This document shows positions 1,601-25,916 of a stretch of DNA of 25,916 nt, piece by piece (position 1 is the first letter of the stretch; every line of letters starts with the position of its first letter). The DNA comes from a virus, in IMG/VR virus record IMGVR_UViG_3300017959_000001, positions 1-25,916 of that record. One strand, 5' to 3'. Made by a program: the position numbers and the translations under genes. The notes under the pieces are model-generated. The model worked only from the letters and a program-made list of their open reading frames with translations. It had not been told where the DNA came from and searched no databases.

Positions 1601-3316
1601 TTAAGATGTTGTTACATTACAGAAAAATGTTGCTTTACCAGTAACATCAGTTGGACTTACTGTTAAAGTTTGTGTCGCTGGGTCTTTAAATGATGGGTCA
1701 ACCGTACCATCAGACTTAAATTTCTCCCAGTTATAAGTAACAGTATCAGGTGCATACAGATCACCATTTTTATACAATAATGCTGTTAGAACCGTACCTA
1801 TACCAGCACCATTTTTGAATACATTACCATTTGAAGAATTAATAACTACTTGTATTGAATGGTCTTCACTCATTCTCTTTAGTAAGTTTGCTCTTCTTGT
1901 GAAATAAGTATCAAATAATCCATTTATGGTAGGACTATCAATAACCGTTGTAATCGTCATATCAGCTAAAAGATTATTTGACGATACATAGTTTAATACG
2001 TTGTTAACAGCTAAAACGTAATCGTTTAACTCGTTTTGTATTGCGGTTGAAGATTGTGTCGTAAAATTATCACGTTCAAGTGTTATTTCATTTAACTTAT
2101 TTTGTAAAGTTTGCTTTTCGTTTGGTGTCAACCTAGCATCATTAAATAAATCATTAATTGCCGAAGCTACATAATCCGCACTTGCTTGAGCTAATGCAAC
2201 ATTTTTTGTGTTTGCACTCAATTGTGATTTAATGCTAGTGATTTCATCTGTTATATTAGATTGAACTTCTTTGAAGTTTGCTAGTGTACATTCGTTTTTG
2301 CTGTCGTCAGTAAATGAAACTTTTAATTGAGATACACGAGCGTCTAAATATAAAGGTGGTGTAAATTCATTATCAATTACATAAACCGTATCACCTATTG
2401 AAACCTCTGAATCAGATAAAAGAATTGTTTTCATATCATATGAAATTTTTGGTTGATTACGAAGTTGTAATGCTTGTCTTGTTAAAGTAAGCAATTCTGC
2501 TGCAGAACTACATTCACTATTTGAATAAACACCAAAAATATGATAACCGTTACGATTCCATCTTTTATAAGAATCATCATCTCCAACCCAATCTTGATCT
2601 AAGGGTTTGTCATCGGCTTGTGCAGTTTTAAAATCAAGTCCATCCTTACCTACACCATACAATGCAGTCGCTAATTCACTTGAATCAACTTTTTTCTGAA
2701 CTTCTGCCATATTTGAGCCATAAGCAAAACGATAACCCCTAAAGTCACCACGTTGTTCATAGACATTTATATATTTACCAACTATTTTACCGCCACGAAT
2801 ATCAACCGAATAACTTATTTCTACATCATATTTATTAATAACCCAATCTTGAATTAATTGATAAACGGTAGTCATATCGGTAATATCAACACTTAAAACA
2901 GTATCAGTGGGAAAACTAATCTCTCCAACTTCCCATTCAGTGTCTTGTAAAATAACGTTTAAAAATTGTTCTATGTTTGCCGAAGGCATACTTACTGGTC
3001 TAACGTACTCATTTAATAAACCAATACCAGCCATTTCACAATAAACAGTTTTCATAAATTGGTCATTATGTACGTCAGTAACATTGATAATTTCAAACAT
3101 TTTGCAATCATGTTGAAATTCAAAAGCAACATAATTACCAACTACCAAGTTTTGAGCTTGAGGTGTAGTTGCTAATGTACTAAATGTAAATGTTTCAGCT
3201 CCTGATGCTAAATCCATCATATATTCATCATCAAAAAATGGTGTTGCTAAGTTTGAACCATTCATTTCTGATAAAGTACCAACAACTTGTTCTTTGTTGT
3301 TCAATATAAAAAGCAT
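1601..3316 (-). CDS. Tail tip protein Tal (prophage endopeptidase-tail family)
   Basis: 571 aa. I chose ATG at 3316 because AAAGGAGG sits 7 nt upstream; the longer TTG start at 3397 would run through the promoter-like leader. Residues 1-350 have the layout of the phage minor structural protein/Tal N-terminal region, the hub that closes the tail tube below Dit: a beta-rich start MLFILNNKEQVVGTL, then DITDMTTVYQLIQDWV, and a VSIGDTVYVID segment. About 365-390 is helical, about 393-485 is a helical LTPNEK module shared with the downstream fibre gene, and about 487-571 looks like an Ig-like fold ending LTVSPTDVTGKATFFC. I see no convincing peptidase or muramidase active site, so enzymatic activity is not claimed. 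The gene follows the reversed cassette and appears to have its own late-type promoter motif. The fibre gene starts 18 nt after its stop. Confidence 0.82.
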   Translation of the reverse strand: MLFILNNKEQVVGTLSEMNGSNLATPFFDDEYMMDLASGAETFTFSTLATTPQAQNLVVGNYVAFEFQHDCKMFEIINVTDVHNDQFMKTVYCEMAGIGLLNEYVRPVSMPSANIEQFLNVILQDTEWEVGEISFPTDTVLSVDITDMTTVYQLIQDWVINKYDVEISYSVDIRGGKIVGKYINVYEQRGDFRGYRFAYGSNMAEVQKKVDSSELATALYGVGKDGLDFKTAQADDKPLDQDWVGDDDSYKRWNRNGYHIFGVYSNSECSSAAELLTLTRQALQLRNQPKISYDMKTILLSDSEVSIGDTVYVIDNEFTPPLYLDARVSQLKVSFTDDSKNECTLANFKEVQSNITDEITSIKSQLSANTKNVALAQASADYVASAINDLFNDARLTPNEKQTLQNKLNEITLERDNFTTQSSTAIQNELNDYVLAVNNVLNYVSSNNLLADMTITTVIDSPTINGLFDTYFTRRANLLKRMSEDHSIQVVINSSNGNVFKNGAGIGTVLTALLYKNGDLYAPDTVTYNWEKFKSDGTVDPSFKDPATQTLTVSPTDVTGKATFFCNVTTS

Positions 3317-3328
3317 TTGTGTCCTCCT

Positions 3329-3353
3329 TTCAACCCTTATAATATATACATGG
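3329..3353 (-). promoter_or_regulatory. Late-type promoter motif, copy 1 (before Tal)
   Basis: On the minus strand this reads CATGTATATATTATAAGGG followed by TTGAA, ending just before the Tal ribosome binding site. It nearly matches the motif at 15375-15399 (CATATATTTATTATAGGGG then TTGAA) and resembles those at 11401-11421 and 21377-21394. A TTGACT lies upstream, but 19 or more bases away. Promoter function is inferred from repetition and position. Confidence 0.55.
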
Positions 3354-3389
3354 ACTGTAGGCGAAAAAGTCAACAATTCTAAATAAAAT

Positions 3390-3412
3390 CTCAACAAAAG
3401 TGTTGAGTTTTT
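3390..3412 (+). terminator. Hairpin / possible bidirectional terminator
   Basis: CTCAACA (3390-3396), loop AAAG, TGTTGAG (3401-3407), followed on the plus strand by T5. On the minus strand the stem is followed by ATTTTATTT, so it may work both ways. Its right arm contains the -35 box of cassette promoter 1. Confidence 0.55.
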
Positions 3413-3456
3413 GATTAATATGTTATATGATCAATTTGTAAGGAAGTTACTTACAA
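3403..3456 (+). promoter_or_regulatory. Cassette promoter 1 with downstream dyad
   Basis: TTGAGT (3403-3408), 17-bp spacer, TATGAT (3426-3431): a good vegetative sigma-type promoter. It is followed by CAATTTGTAAGGAA, shared with promoter 2. The dyad TTGTAAG (3436-3442) / CTTACAA (3450-3456) lies at or just after the expected transcription start and could be an operator or a 5' mRNA hairpin. Confidence 0.7.
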
Positions 3457-3482
3457 AATAAATAATGAAGAGGTTGTTAAAA

Positions 3483-3695
3483 ATGAGAAAAGAGTGGAAA
3501 GTGTTAGAAATTATAGCAAGAGAAGGACAATTTGGTGAAGTAGAGGGTAGAAAGTTATTTGAATATGGTAAACAATTAAAAACATTAAGAGAAGATGGCT
3601 TAATAAAAAGAAGAGATACGGAGTTTGGTTTTAAAATGAGTTTTTATAGCCTAACACATAAAGGTTCACGATTATTAGCGGAAGCTGGGGTTTAA
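3483..3695 (+). CDS. Small winged-helix DNA-binding-like protein
   Basis: 70 aa from ATG 3483. The upstream ATG at 3465 has no well-placed ribosome binding site, whereas AAGAGG lies about 9 nt before 3483. The protein begins MRKEWKVLEIIAREGQFG, then has KQLKTLREDGLIKRRD (a typical recognition helix plus wing) and ends with LTHKGSRLLAEAGV, the C-terminal pattern of small MarR/PadR-like winged-helix proteins. It is probably a transcription factor that could act on the three cassette promoters; that target is inference. It is the first gene of the reversed cassette, with its own promoter upstream. Its stop codon sits in the loop of its terminator. Confidence 0.7.
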   Translation: MRKEWKVLEIIAREGQFGEVEGRKLFEYGKQLKTLREDGLIKRRDTEFGFKMSFYSLTHKGSRLLAEAGV

Positions 3696-3708
3696 CCCTA
3701 GCTTTTTT
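3683..3708 (+). terminator. Intrinsic terminator of the winged-helix gene
   Basis: AGCTGGGG (3683-3690), loop TTTAA, CCCTAGCT (3696-3703) followed by T5. The stem is 8 bp with one G-T pair. The gene's TAA is in the loop. Confidence 0.85.
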
Positions 3709-3722
3709 ATTTCAAAAAACTG

Positions 3723-3775
3723 TTGACACTTATCAGTATTTATGTTATGATCAATTTGTAAGGAACACATTACAA
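3723..3775 (+). promoter_or_regulatory. Cassette promoter 2 with downstream dyad
   Basis: TTGACA (3723-3728), 17-bp spacer, TATGAT (3746-3751): a perfect -35 and near-perfect -10. The sequence TTATGTTATGATCA is shared with promoter 3, and CAATTTGTAAGGAA with promoter 1. The dyad TTGTAA (3756-3761) / TTACAA (3770-3775) follows the -10. Confidence 0.85.
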
Positions 3776-3787
3776 GGAGTGGTTAAA

Positions 3788-4024
3788 ATGCAACAAAAAT
3801 TCGAAATAGCACAAAAACATATTAATGATATTGATTTAAGAATTAAAATGTTTACAGATTCAATTGCAAGAGAAAACAGCCAATTACAAGAATACCTTAA
3901 AACAGAAAATTACTACTGGGTAAATATTTGTGCAAAAAAAATTACAGAGTATTATAATGATTTAACAATAGAACAAACAAAGAAAAAAGAAATGCAAGAG
4001 TTATTAAACTTTTTAACAAAATAA
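3788..4024 (+). CDS. Small coiled-coil protein, paralogue of the zinc-ribbon gene at 4361
   Basis: 78 aa from ATG 3788, with AAGGAG at 3774-3779, 8 nt before the start; the GTG at 3779 overlaps this site and is rejected. The protein is almost entirely helical and charged. It aligns end to end with the C-terminal part of the protein at 4361-4720: both have I-x-D/L-R/K-I repeats, an aromatic pair before a conserved WV (YYWVN and FHWVR), a following A-x-x-I-x-x-Y, and a C-terminus of the form MQELLNF / LQEILDF. No known domain is recognised. It may oligomerise with its paralogue. It is transcribed from promoter 2, with the HTH gene next in the same direction. Confidence 0.72.
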   Translation: MQQKFEIAQKHINDIDLRIKMFTDSIARENSQLQEYLKTENYYWVNICAKKITEYYNDLTIEQTKKKEMQELLNFLTK

Positions 4025-4045
4025 GAGGGTTAACCCCCTCTTTTC
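4024..4045 (+). terminator. Hairpin / terminator after the coiled-coil gene
   Basis: AGAGGG (4024-4029), loop TTAACC, CCCTCT (4036-4041) then TTT. The short T tract suggests partial read-through into the HTH gene, which has no separate recognisable promoter. Confidence 0.65.
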
Positions 4046-4061
4046 TAAGGAGCTAAACAAC

Positions 4062-4295
4062 ATGACTTTAACAGAAGAAATAATGCAAGAAATACAAGTT
4101 TATAGATTATATCATTCTTTTCTTTTTTTAGAAGCCTCTAGATATGTTTTAAGAAAACGTGGTTATTCTTATGAAGAAATAGGCGAGTTAACTCAAGCAA
4201 GTGCAAGTGCGGTTAAACAGTATTTAACAAGATTAGACAAAAAATTAATTGAAAAACCTTATTTTTATACTAATTTAGATGAATTGATGAGTTGA
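4062..4295 (+). CDS. Small HTH protein (sigma region 4-like fold)
   Basis: 77 aa, start ATG 4062, with AAGGAG at 4047-4052, 9 nt upstream. The centre, LRKRGYSYEEIGELTQASAS then AVKQYLTRLDKKL, is a clear helix-turn-helix of the kind seen in sigma-70 region 4 and small phage regulators (Y-S-x-E-E-I-A/G-x-x ... S-x-x-A-V-K-x-x-L). The N-terminal 30 residues are helical and hydrophobic and may form an interaction surface. It could be a DNA-binding regulator or an RNA polymerase-binding protein; the target is unknown. Its stop codon TGA overlaps the -35 box of promoter 3, so the two units are packed as tightly as possible. Confidence 0.72.
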   Translation: MTLTEEIMQEIQVYRLYHSFLFLEASRYVLRKRGYSYEEIGELTQASASAVKQYLTRLDKKLIEKPYFYTNLDELMS

Positions 4296-4310
4296 CAGCT
4301 CATCTTTTTT
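4286..4310 (+). terminator. Terminator whose loop holds the next -35 box
   Basis: GATGAG (4286-4291), loop TTGACAG, CTCATC (4299-4304), then T6. The loop includes TTGACA, the -35 of cassette promoter 3. Confidence 0.78.
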
Positions 4311-4320
4311 ATGTTATGAT
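4292..4320 (+). promoter_or_regulatory. Cassette promoter 3
   Basis: TTGACA (4292-4297), 17-bp spacer, TATGAT (4315-4320), followed by CATTATGTAAGGAACATTA, closely matching promoters 1 and 2 downstream of the -10. The inverted repeat is shorter here (ATGT/ACAT). Confidence 0.85.
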
Positions 4321-4360
4321 CATTATGTAAGGAACATTAAAACTTTAGGAGGTCATTGAT

Positions 4361-4720
4361 ATGACAAACATGGTATGTAACGATTGTAAAAGAGGTTTCA
4401 CAAAAGAATTTGGAAATGAAGATTATTGCCCCCATTGTGGTTGTTTTGATATAAAAGAAATGGACATTAAAAACGAGGGTTTGGAAGTGGAAAACAAACT
4501 AGATGTAATTAAAAGAAGAATTAAGAATTTAGATGCAAAAATTGAAGGTGCTAAAAACAAAATAATGTTAAACCATGATTGTATTAATAAATACATGGAT
4601 CAAAATAGTTTTCATTGGGTTAGAAATGCTGCAGAAGGTATTGCGAAATATTGTGCAGAATTAGAAAAATATGAAGAAATGAAACGTGAATTACAAGAGA
4701 TTTTAGATTTTTTTAACTAA
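4361..4720 (+). CDS. Zinc-ribbon plus coiled-coil protein
   Basis: 119 aa, start ATG 4361, with AGGAGG at 4347-4352. Residues 6-9 are CNDC and 24-27 CPHC (GNEDYCPHCGC), a CxxC...CxxC zinc ribbon with a further Cys after the second pair. Residues about 45-119 form a charged helical region homologous to the whole 78-aa product of 3788-4024, so this is the same module with a zinc ribbon added at the front. It has its own promoter (4292-4320) and a very strong terminator. A nucleic-acid- or protein-binding role is possible; no specific function is recognised. Confidence 0.75.
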   Translation: MTNMVCNDCKRGFTKEFGNEDYCPHCGCFDIKEMDIKNEGLEVENKLDVIKRRIKNLDAKIEGAKNKIMLNHDCINKYMDQNSFHWVRNAAEGIAKYCAELEKYEEMKRELQEILDFFN

Positions 4721-4732
4721 ATAAAATAATCA

Positions 4733-4758
4733 AGAGGGGTTTTCGCCCCTCTTTTTTT
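4733..4758 (+). terminator. Strong intrinsic terminator closing the reversed cassette
   Basis: AGAGGGG (4733-4739), loop TTTTCG, CCCCTCT (4746-4752), then T6. It ends plus-strand transcription before the convergent Dit gene. On the minus strand there is no good T tract. Confidence 0.9.
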
Positions 4759-4780
4759 ATTCCATTTTTTAAACGTTGGT

Positions 4781-4805
4781 ATATCAAGGTTTATAGCCTC
4801 GATAT
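4781..4805 (-). other. Hairpin downstream of Dit
   Basis: Inverted repeat ATATCAAGG (4781-4789) / CCTCGATAT (4797-4805): 9 bp with one G-T pair and a 7-nt loop. No T run follows on the minus strand, so it may be an mRNA 3'-end structure or a weak terminator for the Dit message. Confidence 0.45.
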
Positions 4806-4829
4806 TCTAAATAAAATGTTGCTTTTACT

Positions 4830-6848
4830 TTAAATCCAGCGGTCATTCATTGTGGCGTGTACATCACAAGTATCATCATCGGTTACACAAATAAACTCTG
4901 ATTCACCAGTTGGAATACTAAAGAATTGACTACCAATATCAAGTTCTTCCATAAATGGTTGTCCATTTAAAGTTATTGTTTGTGTTTCACTATCAATTAA
5001 CAATTCGTCTCCTTGATGGAATATTGGTTTAATATCATTGAACGTCAATCCTGTCCACTCAATAACCTCAACATCAGTTACAGACATAACACTACAAGCT
5101 GGGTCACCTTTGAATTGTGAGAAGTAAGCAACAACATTGTTTAATTGTCCTGTTGGATAACTTGTGCTTGATAAGTTGTTTGTGTAAATGTGTTTTGCAA
5201 CTTTACCATCAACAATTTTATCAACTTGTGCAAACCAAATCTGTTTACCCTTGCTATCAGTTGTTCGTCTAATTTTAAACTCAGCGTACATATCGTTCCA
5301 ATCACCATATTTACCACTGTCAAGAGATTGTTTAACAAATTTACCATTAGAAGGGTCTTTTACATAACCTACTTTTGGGATTGGTGATTTTCTTTTGTCA
5401 TCTAAAACTAGAATGTTACCAAAATAAACCTCAGGCTGAGAATACTCATAAAAGAATTCACTATCACGAGCAACAAATTTGAATAGTTTTGCACCGTTTT
5501 TATCAAAGCCATAAATCTCAAGTAATCCACGTTGATTCTCAACACTAGGAGGCATTGGAACTGAGAAAACTTCCGCATCGTAAGAAGTTACCTTTGCTTT
5601 TCTCAAATAAGTCATGTAAACATAACCACTTTTGCCACCATAATAAACTTTACCCCAACCACTCTTGATGTCACTTACAGAAAGTGATGTATTTTTAGGT
5701 ATTGTTTTTAAAGTTTTATATTTTGTACCACGATCTGAACGCATTGATGTACTTGAATTTGTCATGTAATTACCAGTTGATTTAATAGGCAATGGTGGTT
5801 TTTGAATACTCATGAATCCCATACCAACATAACCAGTTTTACCGTTGTAAGTTACTTGTCCAAAGTTTTTATCAACATTTGAAACAGATACTAACTTACC
5901 TTTTGGAATAACTGTTAACTGAATCGAACTTGCAGAACGTGATTGACGAAGTTTAACATCAGACGCTGCATAATAATTTCTCGGTGCTGGTGATGGTGGT
6001 AATTTTGTTGAACCAATTTGTTTCATATCACCTTTTGAGCTGTGCTCAACTCTTACACGAATCTCAAAATCTGTCAGATCTTTACCAATACTTCTTCTCA
6101 CCGCAGGTCCATGCCAAGCCTTATCACTTGAACCAAAGTCATTTGGTATAATAGCATAACCGCCACCATTGACTGTGATATTACCCATAATCTCACGATT
6201 TGGATCTAGCACGTTGCCAGTAGGAAGCCAGTTTGTAGTAGTTGAGCAATCTTCTTTAAACATAAATGGTAATAATCTCATAGGTACTTCAGAATCTGGT
6301 CTGTTACCTAGTAAAATAGTTTGTCCATCATAGTTAGTAGCTTGAAAAAAGTAAGAATCACTATTAAAACTTGCACCAATACGAGGGTATGTTTCAACCG
6401 TACCAGCGTTTTCAACCGTAAGTTTCTTGCTATCATCACCCTCATAAACATATTCTTCAACAGAATATAAATAAGGGTCATGACAAATAAATGTTATTGA
6501 GAATTGACCATGATTACCAACTTTTTCAACACTAATTGCACCATCTGGAATCGCCCACATATATTTTTCAGGCTCATCTGAAATAATTAATTGTTGAGGT
6601 TGAGATACGTTGAGAACATCAGAAATTGTGTTGATTGCGTCCATGTGTTCTTCAGCTGAAGTTGCGGTAATAAAACAATCCAAAACGAGTTGTTTTGGAC
6701 TGTATTTATACCCTGTGTAGTATTCACCAAACATTGAAGGAATATCTTTTGAGAAATTCTTTCTTTCTGGTAATACTGTTCTATGAACCTTTAGGATACC
6801 CATATATTGGTCGATATCCACACCATTAAAATTTACTTGATAACCCAT
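4830..6848 (-). CDS. Evolved distal tail protein (Dit) with two inserted SH3b domains
   Basis: 672 aa. ATG 6848 overlaps the tape-measure stop (TAATG). Residues 1-135 are a typical siphovirus Dit N-terminus (MGYQVNFNGVDI..., YKYSPKQLVLDC, FICHDPYLYS). After this comes a beta-rich carbohydrate-binding-like region (about 195-275). Then come two tandem SH3b domains at about 290-350 and 358-418, each with the pattern start-NV/MRS, KG/KN...V, FGQVTYNGKTGYV and WGKVYYGGKSGYV. The beta region resumes to about 600, and the C-terminus (about 605-672, LLIDSETQTITLNGQPF) matches the Dit end. Dit forms the hexameric tail-tip hub between tube and Tal. The inserted SH3b pair probably binds the cell wall. 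A typical Dit is about 250 aa. Confidence 0.85.
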   Translation of the reverse strand: MGYQVNFNGVDIDQYMGILKVHRTVLPERKNFSKDIPSMFGEYYTGYKYSPKQLVLDCFITATSAEEHMDAINTISDVLNVSQPQQLIISDEPEKYMWAIPDGAISVEKVGNHGQFSITFICHDPYLYSVEEYVYEGDDSKKLTVENAGTVETYPRIGASFNSDSYFFQATNYDGQTILLGNRPDSEVPMRLLPFMFKEDCSTTTNWLPTGNVLDPNREIMGNITVNGGGYAIIPNDFGSSDKAWHGPAVRRSIGKDLTDFEIRVRVEHSSKGDMKQIGSTKLPPSPAPRNYYAASDVKLRQSRSASSIQLTVIPKGKLVSVSNVDKNFGQVTYNGKTGYVGMGFMSIQKPPLPIKSTGNYMTNSSTSMRSDRGTKYKTLKTIPKNTSLSVSDIKSGWGKVYYGGKSGYVYMTYLRKAKVTSYDAEVFSVPMPPSVENQRGLLEIYGFDKNGAKLFKFVARDSEFFYEYSQPEVYFGNILVLDDKRKSPIPKVGYVKDPSNGKFVKQSLDSGKYGDWNDMYAEFKIRRTTDSKGKQIWFAQVDKIVDGKVAKHIYTNNLSSTSYPTGQLNNVVAYFSQFKGDPACSVMSVTDVEVIEWTGLTFNDIKPIFHQGDELLIDSETQTITLNGQPFMEELDIGSQFFSIPTGESEFICVTDDDTCDVHATMNDRWI

Positions 6849-15340: not shown

Positions 15341-15372
15341 AAAAAAATAGACATAACTAAAACGTCATGTCT
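15341..15372 (-). terminator. Terminator / leader hairpin before the protease gene
   Basis: Minus strand AGACATGAC (15372-15364), loop GTTTTA, GTTATGTCT (15357-15349), then A and T7. It probably ends transcripts from the terminase-portal unit; it also becomes the very start of any message from the motif at 15375-15399. Confidence 0.82.
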
Positions 15373-15374
15373 TG

Positions 15375-15399
15375 TTCAACCCCTATAATAAATATATGG
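15375..15399 (-). promoter_or_regulatory. Late-type promoter motif, copy 3 (before protease-capsid)
   Basis: Minus strand CATATATTTATTATAGGGG followed by TTGAA, nearly the same as copy 1 before Tal. TTGAGT lies about 5 nt upstream on the same strand. This 131-nt gap holds only this motif and the hairpin. Confidence 0.55.
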
Positions 15400-15447: not shown

Positions 15448-15651
15448 TTATCTTTTTTTCGGTTTATTTACTTCAATAACAATGCTAATTAAAACTAATA
15501 AAGCACCGATACTCAAAATAAGAGTATCAGTACCAAACTTATCATAAACAAAGTGAAGAATACAGCCAATACCAATAACCAAACAATAGTTTGAGATATT
15601 AGTAAACAAATGACGAAAAAACAAAGCAATTGCGGTAAGAAAACTATTCAT
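15448..15651 (-). CDS. Small two-helix membrane protein
   Basis: 67 aa. The correct start is ATG 15651 with GGAGGT 7 nt upstream; the frame can be extended to 15759, but that part overlaps the portal gene and is low-complexity. The protein reads MNSFLTAIALFFRHLFTNIS, then two hydrophobic segments (about residues 20-36, YCLVIGIGCILHFVY, and 42-60, LILSIGALLVLISIVIEV), and a basic end NKPKKR. It overlaps the portal 3' end by 8 nt. Comparable small membrane proteins occur between portal and protease in some Gram-positive phages. It is holin-like in size, but the location argues against calling it a holin. Confidence 0.65.
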   Translation of the reverse strand: MNSFLTAIALFFRHLFTNISNYCLVIGIGCILHFVYDKFGTDTLILSIGALLVLISIVIEVNKPKKR

Positions 15652-18872: not shown

Positions 18873-18948
18873 ACTAATAGTTGTATGTATGTTGTTGATA
18901 CTAGACTCTCAACACCCCATACCGAGAAAAGAGGGTCAAGCAAGTTAA

Positions 18949-19031
18949 GGAGATAGAGGGATTCGAACCCCCAAAGCTGTTACGCCCAACGGTTTTCAAG
19001 ACCGTCCCAATACCGTTATGTCTATATCTCC
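18949..19031 (-). tRNA. tRNA-Ser(UGA)
   Basis: Acceptor GGAGATA/TATCTCC. The anticodon arm ACGGT-CTTGAAA-ACCGT gives anticodon UGA. There is a long variable arm containing GGGCGTAACAGCTT (type II, as expected for Ser), and a T arm GGGGG-TTCGAAT-CCCTC. The discriminator is U; CCA is not encoded. The D arm is weak. Confidence 0.85.
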
Positions 19032-19035
19032 ATTA

Positions 19036-19123
19036 TGGAGGAGTGTACTGGATTCGAACCAGTGGAACTGTTACGTTCGTCTGTTTAGCAAACAGGTTGT
19101 TTAAACCACTCACACAACACTCC
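19036..19123 (-). tRNA. tRNA-Ser(GCU)
   Basis: Acceptor GGAGTGT/ACACTCC, D arm TGTGAGTGGTTTAAACA, anticodon loop TTGCTAA (GCU). The variable arm GAAC-GTAACA-GTTC forms a perfect stem, and the T arm is ACTGG-TTCGAAT-CCAGT. The discriminator is U and CCA is encoded. Serves AGC/AGU codons. Confidence 0.88.
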
Positions 19124-19127
19124 GTAT

Positions 19128-19222
19128 GGTCGGAACGAGGTGGAATCGAACCACCTAACAGTTGGTTAAGGCTTTTCGTCGTATTTGAAATCACCATTTA
19201 AACTGTTACGCCTAGTCTGACC
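19128..19222 (-). tRNA. Irregular tRNA-like gene, about 95 nt, identity unclear
   Basis: The minus strand has a clear T arm (GGTGG-TTCGATT-CCACC). The ends GGTCAGA and TCCGACC pair with one mismatch, but four extra bases separate the T stem from the 3' acceptor strand. No standard anticodon stem forms; the best loop is TTCAAAT with a stem carrying two mismatches. Long-range complementarities AACAGTT/AACTGTT and AGGC/GCCT cross each other. The CGTAACAG string seen in the variable arms of both Ser tRNAs here lies near the 5' end. It could be a decayed tRNA, a recombinant of two tRNAs, or an unusual structured RNA. Confidence 0.5.
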
Positions 19223-19227
19223 GATAA

Positions 19228-19302
19228 TGGCGAGGATAACGAGATTCGAACTCGTGTTACTTGATAGACAGTCAAGTGTGTTAACCACTACACTATATCC
19301 CC
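19228..19302 (-). tRNA. tRNA-Asp(GUC)
   Basis: Acceptor GGGGATA/TATCCTC with one G-U pair, anticodon arm CTTGA-CTGTCTA-TCAAG (GUC), T arm ACGAG-TTCGAAT-CTCGT. The discriminator is G and CCA is encoded. A canonical cloverleaf. Confidence 0.92.
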
Positions 19303-19304
19303 AA

Positions 19305-19381
19305 TGGTGCGGATAGTAGGACTCGAACCTACAATCTCAACGTCCCAAACGTTGCGGATTAACCAATTTTCCTATATCCAC
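19305..19381 (-). tRNA. tRNA-Pro(UGG)
   Basis: Acceptor GTGGATA/TATCCGC, anticodon arm CAACG-TTTGGGA-CGTTG (UGG), T arm GTAGG-TTCGAGT-CCTAC. The discriminator is A and CCA is encoded. Confidence 0.92.
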
Positions 19382-19382
19382 A

Positions 19383-19459
19383 TGGCGTACTCGATAGGAC
19401 TTGAACCTATGACTTCCTCCTTAACAGGGAGGCACTCTGACCAACTGAGTTACGAGCAC
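19383..19459 (-). tRNA. tRNA-Asn(GUU)
   Basis: Acceptor GTGCTCG/CGAGTAC with one G-U pair, D arm ACTCAGTTGGTCAGAGT, anticodon arm CCTCC-CTGTTAA-GGAGG (GUU), T arm ATAGG-TTCAAGT-CCTAT. CCA is encoded. Confidence 0.93.
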
Positions 19460-19461
19460 AT

Positions 19462-19535
19462 TGGCAAGTGTTAAAGGAATCAAACCTCTCATTCCAGTTT
19501 TGGAGACTGGCGTGTAATCACTACACTAAACACCC
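19462..19535 (-). tRNA. tRNA-Trp(CCA)
   Basis: Acceptor GGGTGTT/AACACTT with two G-U pairs, anticodon arm CCAGT-CTCCAAA-ACTGG (CCA), T arm AGAGG-TTTGATT-CCTTT. The discriminator is G and 3' CCA is encoded. Confidence 0.92.
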
Positions 19536-19581
19536 ATAACCGAGGGTTTTAAAGCGGAACTCCCCCAACGCAATGATCATT

Positions 19582-19627
19582 TTAATTTATAGGCGAGTCA
19601 TTCGACTGTCGCTTCAACCTATAATTT
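19582..19627 (-). other. Long hairpin in the tRNA cluster spacer
   Basis: The 98-nt gap between tRNA-Trp and the next tRNA-like gene contains TATAGG/CCTATA enclosing a second stem, AGTC-GAAT-GACT with a flanking GCG/CGC. No T run follows. It may be an RNA-processing element or the remnant of a lost tRNA; I recognise no known RNA family. Confidence 0.4.
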
Positions 19628-19633
19628 ATTTTG

Positions 19634-19704
19634 TGGTGGGCGTAGGTGGGAATCGAACCCACATGACAAACGAATAATTTCATAAGTCGCTGACCGTCAC
19701 GCCC
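19634..19704 (-). tRNA. Irregular short tRNA-like gene, identity unclear
   Basis: GGGCGTG/TACGCCC is a perfect acceptor (one G-U), the discriminator is A, CCA is encoded, and the T arm GTGGG-TTCGATT-CCCAC is clear. One extra C follows the T stem. The remaining middle is too short for both a normal D arm and anticodon arm: GGTC-AGC-GACT would make a D stem with a 3-nt loop, and no well-paired 7-nt anticodon loop follows. The candidate ATGAAAT loop (GAA, Phe) has a stem with two mismatches and would leave no D arm. It may be a decayed tRNA or one with a reduced D arm. Confidence 0.5.
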
Positions 19705-19713
19705 ATATAATGT

Positions 19714-19825
19714 TGGAGAAAGGAGGTCTCGAACCTCCATATTAGGCATACCACAGCCACGACGAGTCGAACGTCTTTTAGTCGGATTTGATTTCCAACT
19801 GCTTTACCGATTAAGCTATTTCCCC
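19714..19825 (-). tRNA. Irregular tRNA-like gene with two T-arm-like hairpins, UCA-like anticodon
   Basis: About 112 nt. Acceptor GGGGAAA/TTTCTCC, D arm GCTTAATCGGTAAAGC and T arm GGAGG-TTCGAGA-CCTCC are all good. The anticodon stem TTGGA/TCCGA encloses AATCAAA, which would present UCA but lacks the usual U33. Between it and the T arm lie about 42 nt with a second T-arm-like hairpin GACG-TTCGACT-CGTC and a GGC...GCC hairpin. CCA is not encoded. Options are an opal-reading or Sec-like tRNA with a giant variable region, a tRNA carrying an insertion, or a fusion of two tRNAs. Confidence 0.5.
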
Positions 19826-19826
19826 T

Positions 19827-19876
19827 TGTAAGCTATTAACTAACTTACATATACATTATGGCAACTTGCAGATCAA
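19827..19876 (-). promoter_or_regulatory. Promoter candidate for the tRNA cluster
   Basis: Minus strand TTGATC (19876-19871), 17-bp spacer, TATATG (19853-19848). The following TGTAAG (19849-19844) / CTTACA (19832-19827) dyad resembles the TGTAAG dyads after cassette promoters 1 and 2. It lies between the HNH gene stop and the first tRNA-like gene. Confidence 0.55.
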
Positions 19877-19884
19877 AGTGTAAA

Positions 19885-20301
19885 CTATTTTAAAGCTTCA
19901 TTTACATCTTTCTCAAATTGTTCAAGTGCCTCTGGTTTCATGTACTTTTGAAGTATCCAAATTGAATAAGTTAAGTTATGAATACCAAAGCCTTTACCCC
20001 TATGATGTTTAGCACATAAAGGCATCATTTGTGCTTTGTTATCAACGTCCACAAATTCTGGATAGTCCTTAATTACTTTCTCCCAATCAACTTCTGATGA
20101 AGCAGCATACTCAATTATGCTATGATGAATCTCAACATTACCTTCACATTTACCGTTGTCGATAAAGCATTTTGCATGGTTTTTATGAAATTCTTGTTTG
20201 ACTTTTCTGAACTCAGCACTTTCAGATCTTTGTTCATGGTCTTCATAATGTGCAACTTCAATCAACTCGTGAATGTGAGAGTGTGCTTTTACTATACTCA
20301 T
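19885..20301 (-). CDS. HNH-type nuclease-like protein next to terminase
   Basis: 138 aa. ATG 20301 overlaps the TerS stop (TAATG), so it is translationally coupled. It has Cys/His clusters AKCFIDNGKCEGNVEIHHSI and MMPLCAKHHRGKGFGIHNLT, the ββα-metal pattern of HNH-related proteins, with a helical N-terminus (HIHELIEVAHYEDHE). HNH proteins next to terminase genes are often required for packaging-linked cutting in cos phages; alternatively it may be a homing endonuclease, and the tRNA cluster just downstream would fit a mobile hot spot. I cannot decide from sequence alone. Confidence 0.7.
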   Translation of the reverse strand: MSIVKAHSHIHELIEVAHYEDHEQRSESAEFRKVKQEFHKNHAKCFIDNGKCEGNVEIHHSIIEYAASSEVDWEKVIKDYPEFVDVDNKAQMMPLCAKHHRGKGFGIHNLTYSIWILQKYMKPEALEQFEKDVNEALK

Positions 20302-20819: not shown

Positions 20820-21218
20820 TTATAATGTAAAATTGTATTCAACACTTTTTGGCACGAATAAGAAATCAAGTTCTTCATCTGTACCAAGTTGAAGATTACA
20901 CGTTTTGCACAAAGTTACTAAATTAGTTTCCTCAAATATCAGATCCTCATATTTATGTCGTGGCTTGATATGGTGTACTTCTAATCTTCCCTTTGTTAGT
21001 ATTTTGTATTTAATCCAACACCGTTGACAATGGAAATCGTCACGTTCTAATATACGTTTTCTAAGTTTTCTCCAACGTGTGGTATTCATTAACTTTGATG
21101 TTTCTACATATTTCTCGAGTGATTCTTTTGTAAACCTGTGCTTTTGTACACAACAAGTTTCGTTGTATGCAATCTTTTTACCACATTTGCATAATTTGTA
21201 TCTTACTCTATCACTCAT
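20820..21218 (-). CDS. HNH endonuclease
   Basis: 132 aa from ATG 21218, which overlaps the end of the 43-aa zinc-ribbon gene by 8 nt; the TTG seven codons earlier is inside that gene. The N-terminus has a Cys-rich segment CKCGKKIAYNETCC. The HNH domain follows: MNTTRWRKLRKRILERDDFH, CQRCW, LEVHHIKPRHKYEDL, NLVTLCKTCNLQL. All expected metal-binding Cys and catalytic His residues are present (HHIKP...N...C-x-x-C). It is probably linked to cos cleavage with the neighbouring terminase, as in many P27-type phages, or to mobility. TerS starts 12 nt after its stop. Confidence 0.85.
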   Translation of the reverse strand: MSDRVRYKLCKCGKKIAYNETCCVQKHRFTKESLEKYVETSKLMNTTRWRKLRKRILERDDFHCQRCWIKYKILTKGRLEVHHIKPRHKYEDLIFEETNLVTLCKTCNLQLGTDEELDFLFVPKSVEYNFTL

Positions 21219-21342
21219 CTTCTTCAACTTCTTCTTCAATTATTGGTGTGTAATCATCGTTGCCACCACAATATTGACATTCTAATTCATTGCCAATTCT
21301 TATTAGAGCACTATTACACTCTTTACACATTACTTCTTTCAT
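21211..21342 (-). CDS. 43-aa zinc-ribbon protein
   Basis: Short frame with ATG 21342, preceded by AAAGGA at 7 nt. The translation begins MKEVMCKECNSALIRIGNEL, then ECQYCGGND, and ends in an acidic tail IIEEEVEEDE. Two CxxC knuckles (residues 6-9 and 22-25) define a zinc ribbon. It is coupled to the HNH gene by an 8-nt overlap and is the first gene after late-type promoter motif copy 4. The function is unknown; it may assist the HNH protein or bind nucleic acid. Confidence 0.72.
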   Translation of the reverse strand: MKEVMCKECNSALIRIGNELECQYCGGNDDYTPIIEEEVEEDE

Positions 21343-21437: not shown

Positions 21438-22484
21438 TTACATATTTTGTAGCGTGATTAGTGCTTTCTCAGCATCTTCTTTGCTTGTAAATGTACCAAT
21501 TGTGAAGTTGTTACCTTGAGGAATAATAGTTAAAGCCTCGGCAACTGGTGGTGTAAAACTTTGATCTGATTTTAAAACTACTAGACCATTACCTTCACCA
21601 CGTTTATCAATACCTAAATCAACAGTGTTTGATAATAGTAACTCAACAATTTCAGTTTCATACATCGTGTAACCAGCTTGTTGTTCATGTAGTGCAATTA
21701 ATAGAGCAACCGCACCACTAACATGAGGTGTAGCCATTGAAGTTCCACTTAAAAGTTGATAGCCACCATTAAGAGCCAATGAGTAAACATCAACACCTAA
21801 AGCAACACAATCTAACTCAACATTTGTATCAGAGAACCTTGCAAGTTGTTTGTTAATATCAACCGCACCAACCTCAACAACTTCATCAAAGTAAGATGGA
21901 TAAGAAATCTCATCTGTATCTGTTGAGCCATCGCCACTATTACCTGAAGCACATACAACAACAACGCCATTTTTTACTGCATAACGAACAGCCTCATGTA
22001 ATTGGTCATCATAATATGGTCCACCTAATGACAACGAAATAACCCTAGCACGTTCACCATTTGGTCCACGCCAATCAACCGCCCAAAATATTCCTTGAAT
22101 AATAGTAGCGTAATCACCGCCACCTCTACTATCTAGAACTTTACCAATAAGCAATTGACATTCAGGTGCAACACCAACAATACCACTGCCAAAATTATTT
22201 GCAGCAATTGTTCCAGCAACGTGTGTACCATGAAAATTGTTATCATAAAAGTTATTTGGATCTGCGTTCCAATCATTTGTAAAGTTCTTACCGCCAATGA
22301 TTTGACCTTGTAAATCAGGGTGGTCAGTTGCACAACCAGTATCCAACACCGCAACAACAATGCCTTTACCTTTTGTTTGACCCCATATTTCTGGAGCGTT
22401 AATCATTTGTACTCCATTTGGTATTCCGTTTTGTGGTGGTGTAACCACATCTTGAATAGTAATAGGAGGTAATTTAACTGTCAT
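21438..22484 (-). CDS. Subtilisin-like S8 serine protease, intracellular (ISP-like)
   Basis: 348 aa. ATG 22484 with AAAGGGAG upstream. No signal peptide is visible, so the enzyme should act in the cytoplasm or virion. It has a short N-terminal extension (KLPPITIQDVV) where intracellular subtilisins carry their LIPY-type inhibitory propeptide, then GVQMINAPEIWGQTKGKGIV. The catalytic triad is complete: Asp48 in VAVLDTGCATDHPDL, His85 in FHGTHVAGT, Ser249 in SGTSMATPHVSG; the oxyanion Asn182 is in ASGNSG. The last about 40 residues (NNFTIGTFTSKEDAEKALIT) look like a small added domain. The gene lies in the early leftward unit with an HNH gene. Possible targets are host defence or regulatory proteins; unknown. 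Confidence 0.9.
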   Translation of the reverse strand: MTVKLPPITIQDVVTPPQNGIPNGVQMINAPEIWGQTKGKGIVVAVLDTGCATDHPDLQGQIIGGKNFTNDWNADPNNFYDNNFHGTHVAGTIAANNFGSGIVGVAPECQLLIGKVLDSRGGGDYATIIQGIFWAVDWRGPNGERARVISLSLGGPYYDDQLHEAVRYAVKNGVVVVCASGNSGDGSTDTDEISYPSYFDEVVEVGAVDINKQLARFSDTNVELDCVALGVDVYSLALNGGYQLLSGTSMATPHVSGAVALLIALHEQQAGYTMYETEIVELLLSNTVDLGIDKRGEGNGLVVLKSDQSFTPPVAEALTIIPQGNNFTIGTFTSKEDAEKALITLQNM

Positions 22485-22549: not shown

Positions 22550-23053
22550 TTATTTTGGTAACTTATGTGTTTTTCCATTTAAAATATTGAACACAGTTGA
22601 ACGAGAATTTATTTTAAATTTTTTACATAATGCTGATATACCGTATTCTTTGTCATTTGGAATATAATTTTTCCTAATATAAGCAACTTGCTCATTTGTT
22701 AATTTTACATTAGGACGTTTTTTACCTTTTAATAAACCAGTTTGAACAGCGTGTATCATATTTTCAGAACGATTACACCATTCTAAATTGGTTAATTTAT
22801 TATTTTGTTTATTACCATCAATGTGGTTTACGTCTGGTTTGTTTTCTGGGTTTTCAATAAATGCCCCACAGACTATACGGTGCATTTTGTACTGAGTTTT
22901 AACACCGTCTTTATTAAGGTTTTTAACTAAATAACCATTACTTCTTAATGTAGGTTTTAAAAGTTTTCCTTTTGAGTTTTTTATGTGACCTAAATTGCTT
23001 ACTTTATAAAGTCCCTCATACCCTTTGACGTCTTTCCAAATTTCATTCTCCAT
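22550..23053 (-). CDS. NUMOD4-HNH homing endonuclease-like protein
   Basis: 167 aa from ATG 23053, with AAGGGGG 7 nt upstream; a longer frame to 23089 lacks this site. Domains: NUMOD4 at about 4-50 (IWKDVKGYEGLYKVSNLGHI), HNH at about 58-103 (YKMHRIVCGAFIENP, DVNHIDGNKQNN, LTNLEWCNRSENM), and a C-terminal DNA-binding part with VKLTNEQVAYIRKNY and a NUMOD1-like HTH (ISALCKKFKINSRSTVFNIL). This is the standard free-standing phage homing nuclease. It is the first gene after the leftward early promoter; no interrupted target gene is visible in the window. Confidence 0.88.
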   Translation of the reverse strand: MENEIWKDVKGYEGLYKVSNLGHIKNSKGKLLKPTLRSNGYLVKNLNKDGVKTQYKMHRIVCGAFIENPENKPDVNHIDGNKQNNKLTNLEWCNRSENMIHAVQTGLLKGKKRPNVKLTNEQVAYIRKNYIPNDKEYGISALCKKFKINSRSTVFNILNGKTHKLPK

Positions 23054-23103
23054 AATTAAACCCCCTTTGTTAATAATTGGTTGCCACAATTACTAACACT
23101 GTT

Positions 23104-23132
23104 ATTATGGTGAAAACGTTTTCGAAGTGTAA
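23104..23132 (-). promoter_or_regulatory. Leftward early promoter with palindromic operator candidate
   Basis: Minus strand TTACAC (23132-23127), 17-bp spacer, CATAAT (23109-23104). The spacer contains the perfect palindrome GAAAACGTTTTC (23112-23123), well placed for repressor binding. It matches the promoters at 23390 and 25545. Confidence 0.65.
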
Positions 23133-23150
23133 TTGCAAAGATACGCCCCA

Positions 23151-23274: not shown

Positions 23275-23389
23275 ATCAGAGAATAATTTTAAAAAACAAT
23301 TTAATTTTTTTAACCCTCTAATAAATCTATGTATTGTCACAACCTGAGTAAACAATAAATATGAAAAAACTTTTCTTTTTTCTACTATT

Positions 23390-23418
23390 TTACACTTTTC
23401 GAAATATTCTCCCATAAT
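23390..23418 (+). promoter_or_regulatory. Rightward early promoter (before the helicase)
   Basis: TTACAC (23390-23395), 17-bp spacer, CATAAT (23413-23418), about 32 nt before the helicase ATG. Shares TTTTACACTTT and CCATAAT with the promoter at 25545 and TTACACTT with the leftward one. Confidence 0.65.
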
Positions 23419-23450
23419 GCAAGTGTATAAATTGCAAGGGAGAATTGAAT

Positions 23451-25529: not shown

Positions 25530-25544
25530 GTTGTAATTATTGTT

Positions 25545-25573
25545 TTACACTTTAGATTACTTTTAACCATAAT
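25545..25573 (+). promoter_or_regulatory. Early promoter before the antirepressor-like gene
   Basis: TTACAC (25545-25550), 17-bp spacer, CATAAT (25568-25573), the same pattern as the helicase promoter. Transcription should start near 25580. Confidence 0.68.
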
Positions 25574-25605
25574 GACCTCGTAAAACAAAACAACAGGAGG
25601 TCATT
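25571..25605 (+). promoter_or_regulatory. Inverted repeat hiding the ribosome binding site
   Basis: AATGACCTC (25571-25579) pairs perfectly with GAGGTCATT (25597-25605), which includes most of the SD AGGAGG (25595-25600). The left arm overlaps the -10 box, so it could also be a DNA operator. Confidence 0.7.
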
Positions 25606-25609
25606 TAAA

Positions 25610-25916
25610 ATGGCAAACGAACTACAAGTATTTAACAACGGACTATTTGGCGAGGTACGTTTTTTACAATTAGATGGAAAAGAATATGCGGTTGCGGTTG
25701 ATGTTGCGAAATCATTAGGTTACAGAGATACAACAAACGCAATTAAACAACATTGTCGTGGGGTGGTAAAACACCACCTCATAGATAATTTAGGAAGAAA
25801 CCAAACAGTTAATATTATTGGTGAATCTGACATATACCGATTAATATTTAAATCGAAACTACCACAAGCCGAAGCATTTGAATGTTGGGTAATGGAAGAA
25901 GTATTACCACAAATTA
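25610..25916 (+). CDS. Bro-N family antirepressor-like protein (3' end outside window)
   Basis: The frame is open from ATG 25610 to the right edge (102 codons seen), with AGGAGG about 9 nt before the start. The sequence reads MANELQVFNNGLFGEVRFLQ, then YAVAVDVAKSLGYRDTTNAI, HCRGV, IIGESDIYRLIFKSKLPQAE and AFECWVMEEVLPQI. This is the Bro-N domain of phage antirepressors and related DNA-binding proteins (V-x-D-V-A-x-x-L-G-Y ... E-S-x-x-Y-x-L-I-x-x-S-K-L-P-x-A-x-x-F-x-x-W-V). Many such proteins have a C-terminal ANT or KilA-C domain, not visible here. Its own early promoter and an SD-hiding repeat suggest tight control. Confidence 0.88.
   Translation, partial: MANELQVFNNGLFGEVRFLQLDGKEYAVAVDVAKSLGYRDTTNAIKQHCRGVVKHHLIDNLGRNQTVNIIGESDIYRLIFKSKLPQAEAFECWVMEEVLPQI

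Follow-up and report, generated by a model that had tools for sequence, protein, structure and literature searches.

How do four small genes come to lie, on the opposite strand, between two phage tail genes that are normally neighbours? We addressed this question in the window, i.e., the whole stretch of DNA that was analysed, which is the 25,916-base virus record IMGVR_UViG_3300017959_000001 of IMG/VR, a metagenomic fragment from which the rest of the genome is missing. The phage is an unclassified siphovirus, and its late operon lies on the minus strand and encodes terminase, portal, protease, capsid, connectors, tape measure, Dit, Tal, and a fibre-like gene. Its TerL is closest to that of 80-90 kb Enterococcus and Geobacillus phages (~43% identity). 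Dit and Tal are closest to those of Terrisporobacter phages, and the best relative of Tal has only 45% identity. The locus has the following features:

1601-3316, minus strand: Tal, tail endopeptidase/tip protein (Prophage_tail, 7e-30), downstream neighbour of the island
3329-3348, minus strand: Tal leader motif TATATATTATAAGGGTTGAA, 20 bases
3376-3389: left copy of the 14-bp direct repeat ATTCTAAATAAAAT
3390-3407: left-edge stem-loop, terminator-like on both strands
3403-3447, plus strand: P1, TTGAGT-17-TATGAT, core TATGATCAATTTGTAAGGAA, promoter score 9/12
3465-3695, plus strand: gene 1, 76 aa, possible winged-helix protein
3680-3706, plus strand: intrinsic terminator downstream of gene 1
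3723-3767, plus strand: P2, TTGACA-17-TATGAT with extended -10, score 11/12
3779-4024, plus strand: gene 2, 81 aa, helical protein
4023-4042: weak stem-loop with a short T run, between genes 2 and 3
4062-4295, plus strand: gene 3, 77 aa, helix-turn-helix (HTH) protein like sigma-70 region 4, with a ribosome-binding site
4286-4304, plus strand: terminator downstream of gene 3, with the -35 box of P3 inside its loop
4292-4336, plus strand: P3, TTGACA-17-TATGAT with extended -10, score 11/12
4361-4720, plus strand: gene 4, 119 aa, modelled N-terminal zinc ribbon (CxxC-x13-CxxC) and two-helix hairpin
4732-4753: strong right-edge terminator, whose stem works both ways
4804-4817: right copy of the 14-bp direct repeat ATTCTAAATAAAAT
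4830-6848, minus strand: Dit, distal tail protein with two SH3 domains (PHROG 202, 6e-82), upstream neighbour of the island in the late operon

Thus, ~1.4 kb with four plus-strand ORFs keeps the stop codon of Dit (4830) apart from the ATG of Tal (3316), which is preceded by its own GGAGG ribosome-binding site. In 2,000 Markov sequences of the same region, the number of ORFs of at least 76 aa on this strand averages 0.03 and never exceeds 2. A codon model built from the other genes of the phage gave each of the four a positive score in the annotated frame only. Given their length and a codon usage restricted to the annotated frame, we regard them as real genes, which confirms the reversed four-gene island that the first-pass annotation had placed between Dit and Tal.

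The same annotation had stated that Dit and Tal normally adjoin, and this is what the relatives show. The two genes are contiguous in 80 IMG/VR loci and 3 bacterial contigs, representing 17 groups at 80% identity. The largest true gap is 76 bases, since the apparent gaps of 238-325 bases in IMG/VR loci are alignments starting inside Tal. Where the Tal ORF could be resolved, it starts within ~15 bases of Dit, and the two minus-strand ORFs listed at these loci lie inside Tal. There is also no gene at the junction of Dit and the next tail gene in Terrisporobacter TPDSL_ph2 and TVCOM_ph1, Paenibacillus C7Cdelta, Geobacillus GR1, and Listeria A006, among which GR1 is a weaker comparator because the gene after Dit is annotated as an adhesin. 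Since the junction is uninterrupted in all the relatives examined, the island is an insertion, and among the material examined it is unique to this phage. We searched past the stop of Dit for a remnant of its C-terminus, but the candidate (an out-of-frame MTAGFKVKATFYLEYRGYKP ending in a stop) was rejected, as Dit has the normal NERW-type end of its family. Between its two halves, Dit carries two bacterial SH3 (SH3_3) domains, an arrangement that is also apparent in the Dit of Terrisporobacter phages.

Just beyond the edge hairpins, the island is flanked on both sides by a 14-bp direct repeat whose two copies match perfectly. No common string of at least 14 bases was found between the flanks in any of 3,000 composition-matched simulations, which were devised once the repeat had been noticed. 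The island has a GC content of 27.9%, against 32-36% in the adjacent genes, and the GC3 of its genes (0.13-0.22) is that of the phage's own genes, so that silent sites do not support a recent foreign origin.

The transcription signals of the island are repetitive. Upstream of genes 1, 2, and 4 lies a 46-nt repeat, whose 20-nt core TATGATCAWTWTGTAAGGAA is present in three mismatch-free copies in the window and nowhere else in it at up to 3 mismatches (mean of 0.04 in shuffled sequences). The three promoter elements are near-identical and make up a single family. P2 and P3 are sigma-A-like sites matching at 11/12 positions, of which ~0.03 are expected by simulation per 25.9-kb strand. P1 is weaker (9/12), yet its 20-bp core is identical to that of P2. 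These elements correspond to the three promoters proposed in the first-pass annotation. The core runs ~14 nt beyond the -10 box, where P1 and P2 have TTGTAA...TTACAA inverted repeats (TTGTAAG/CTTACAA downstream of the -10 in P1), which may be operators or 5' mRNA hairpins; P3 has the left half of this repeat and lacks the right one. When searched as a DNA pattern in IMG/VR, the promoter core gave one match, in an unrelated phage, which we judged to be due to chance; this pattern search revealed no relative carrying the terminator-promoter modules.

These promoters belong to another family than those found elsewhere in the window, which have three exact copies outside the island and none inside:

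23389-23419, plus strand: TTTACACTTT-N14-CATAATG, before the helicase gene
25544-25574, plus strand: TTTACACTTT-N14-CATAATG, before the antirepressor gene
19854-19884, minus strand: TTTACACTTT-N14-CATAATG, upstream of the late operon's tRNA/terminase end

The difference between the families argues for a separate control of the island. A further copy of the phage's own promoter, with 3 mismatches, lies at 23103-23133 (minus strand). In the leader of the antirepressor gene (25570-25612, plus strand), a possible 9-bp hairpin, AATGACCTC...GAGGTCATT (-11.4 kcal/mol, z -4.9), would mask the gene's own GGAGG ribosome-binding site.

The minus strand has other peculiarities. A 348-aa gene upstream of the terminase genes (21438-22484) matches a phage protease family (PHROG 3677), and three HNH endonuclease genes (19885-20301, 20820-21239, and 22550-23089) surround the small terminase and this protease gene. 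A tRNA cluster (18948-19825) holds six tRNAs identified by ARAGORN and a seventh found by Rfam only (19714-19825), of unusual length (112 nt), while 19130-19225 and 19640-19710 resemble additional atypical tRNAs. A possible small hydrophobic protein (15448-15651, ~67 aa from the ATG) lies between portal and protease and overlaps the end of the portal gene.

We found five distinct stem-loops in the island, where ~1 terminator-like site is expected in the scanned region. This is one more than the four terminators initially reported, and the stem-loop at 4023-4042 is probably leaky and read through. Gene 3 follows this weak stem-loop and lacks a separate promoter, so it is probably transcribed together with gene 2 as a leaky operon. 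The predicted hairpins at the edges can act in both directions. Terminators and promoters overlap, the -35 box being inside or against a hairpin in two of the three modules (that of P1 shares bases with the 3' arm of the hairpin at the left edge). As for the restart of the minus strand at Tal by a late-type promoter, the motif of the Tal leader does recur, with 1 mismatch, at 15375-15394 (minus strand), but a terminator-like hairpin lies directly after this second copy, so that the motif is at best a putative late promoter. This copy precedes the prohead protease gene, and together with its hairpin (15349-15394, minus strand) it looks attenuator-like.

The four products had all been described as nucleic-acid-binding or interaction proteins, which is too strong. 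The HTH of gene 3, whose similarity to sigma-70 region 4 (Pfam, 7.7e-5) falls under the curated cut-off, has reasonable support, as has the zinc ribbon of gene 4, from its CxxC...CxxC pattern and from a model with the helical hairpin at a pLDDT of 87. The winged helix of gene 1 is weakly supported: the sub-threshold similarities to HxlR, PadR, and HTH_45 reach 9e-4 at best, and the AlphaFold model is of low confidence (60.6) with no wing visible. The coiled-coil product of gene 2 gave no sign of nucleic-acid binding. Instead, it resembles the hairpin of gene 4 (E-value of 2e-10 in a single comparison, 23% identity, common W-V-x3-A-x2-I-x2-Y), with a score that coiled-coil bias may have inflated. 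The aligned tryptophan, the full-length collinearity, and the matching promoters lead us to favour a duplication, in which gene 2 would be a paralogue of the C-terminal part of gene 4, with the same promoter ahead of each gene.

Database searches did not place these proteins further. No family of Pfam, NCBIfam, PHROGs, or PADLOC convincingly claims any of them, and PADLOC gave no meaningful match to a defence system component. Foldseek with the gene 4 model returned only generic coiled-coil and zinc-ribbon matches, none with an E-value of 0.001 or less. We found no homologues in INPHARED (best E-value of 0.3), nor in IMG/VR with a search that depends on almost exact matches of 8 residues and performs poorly on short proteins. 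Gene 4 has none in 15 related records, and genes 1, 3, and 4 have none in 291 genomes of the class of the Terrisporobacter genome, in a search run without a positive control. Rfam gave sub-threshold noise across the island.

By definition, morons are genes that bring their own promoter and terminator and have been inserted between two genes which are neighbours in relatives (PMC4378225). The island lies between genes adjacent in related phages and has its own promoters and terminators, as judged by sequence. Together with the empty junction in relatives, these signals support the autonomously transcribed reversed insertion suggested by the first-pass annotation and make a moron interpretation well supported. 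We consider it probable that the locus is an insulated moron island of ~1.4 kb, acquired at the exact Dit/Tal boundary and expressed outside late control. Some observations count against this: P1 scores only 9/12, P3 lacks the right half of the repeat, GC3 is phage-like, and no homologous copy elsewhere indicates mobility.

Under the moron interpretation, acquisition probably took place by recombination at or near the short repeat. Transcription would then involve three head-to-tail units (P1-gene 1; P2-gene 2-gene 3; P3-gene 4), each starting with a terminator/promoter module and presumably read by the host sigma-A RNA polymerase, early in infection and/or constitutively, without being subject to late control. 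Since the near-identical core extends past the -10 box, we infer that the three units form one co-regulated set. A regulator might bind the TTGTAA...TTACAA repeat, be it the product of gene 1, that of gene 3, or a host factor, and TTGTAAGGAAGTTACTTACAA is a candidate target for autoregulation by the product of gene 1 or gene 3. The edge hairpins would block island transcripts from entering the antisense strand of Dit and would also halt late antisense transcription arriving from Dit, with Tal and the fibre gene restarted by their own leader signal. That the products are small accessory regulators or host-interaction proteins is a tentative suggestion, which we make with low confidence.

The phage-like GC3 also fits another scenario, to which we give serious weight even if we would not bet on it: the genes could stem from the early genes of this phage or of a relative, have been recombined into the late region through repeated terminator-promoter modules, and function in host takeover, rather than being a foreign moron. 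PeSLs, reportedly composite promoter-terminator motifs of T4-like phages and said to have been described by Arbiol in 2010 and Comeau in 2014, would be the model. PMC4503421 presents them as repeated early-type promoter and stem-loop modules before small ORFs, proposed to mediate gene shuffling. In the island, a promoter joined to a stem-loop is likewise repeated before small ORFs, three times, and in two of these modules the -35 lies within the hairpin or overlaps it; genes 2 and 4 resemble a duplicated module-plus-gene, and the orientation is that of the plus-strand helicase and antirepressor genes. However, the modules are unlike the promoters at 19884, 23389, and 25544, which are the phage's own, and no copy of them is present elsewhere in the window, itself a part of the genome, or in IMG/VR beyond the chance match. 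The likeness to PeSLs is thus one of architecture, with three copies in one island of a siphovirus with relatives in Firmicutes hosts, and the genome-wide repetition typical of PeSLs was not observed within the 25.9-kb fragment. HGTV-1 has a comparable conserved promoter and inverted repeat motif, repeated TATA-box/inverted-repeat elements before many small ORFs (PMC3950731), but it is an archaeal myovirus, in which one half of the genome has the motif in front of the majority of its ORFs.

The initial proposal that the genes act in lysogenic conversion or superinfection immunity, expressed from a repressed prophage, seems unlikely to us. Independent sigma-A-like promoters and insulation would allow it, and the DNA-binding-like products and the antirepressor gene at 25610 would fit, but the 25.9-kb fragment has no integrase or repressor gene, the temperate lifestyle is only putative, and neither PADLOC nor homologues lend support to it or to the conjectured role in host defence. 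A mobile element that left a 14-bp target-site duplication is improbable: the exact repeat at the outer edges is what one would expect, but 14 bp is long for a target duplication, and the island has no transposase, recombinase, endonuclease, or terminal inverted repeats. We strongly doubt that the island acts as a switch that regulates the receptor-binding end of the virion, breaking the late operon between Dit and Tal; if it were, the HTH products would control the separate leader signal of Tal and the fibre gene, and the tail-tip/host-range genes would be dosed apart from the remaining tail genes. An assembly chimera is hardly credible. This is a single metagenomic record with no close relative confirming the junctions, but two junctions would be required, the codon usage fits the phage, and the 14-bp repeat is shorter than usual assembly k-mers.

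Like known phage morons, those of lambdoid phages and ORFs 8-10 of SPP1, the island has its own signals and lies between normally adjacent genes. In SPP1, the late genes are interrupted by a segment 'bracketed between transcriptional signals' that holds three moron genes and oriR (PMC6316719); we saw no origin iterons as in oriR in the island. Unlike known morons, the island is made of three linked units with one common promoter element and two paralogues, has a bracketing direct repeat, and sits at the Dit-Tal boundary. Its kind is known, and it stands out for its modular construction, for the repeat that brackets it, and for its orphan contents; the gene 2/4 paralogy, the repeat, the contrasting promoter families, and the terminator-promoter overlap were not in the first-pass annotation. 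The entry of morons into essential gene clusters has been termed mysterious, with insertion sites showing no recognisable common recombinase target (PMC4378225). Here, the 14-bp direct repeat is a concrete scar that can be tested: it lies just outside an insulated, modular insert, and no relative examined has an interruption at this junction. The island also hints that terminator-promoter modules like those of PeSLs may have arisen in siphoviruses whose relatives infect Gram-positive hosts.
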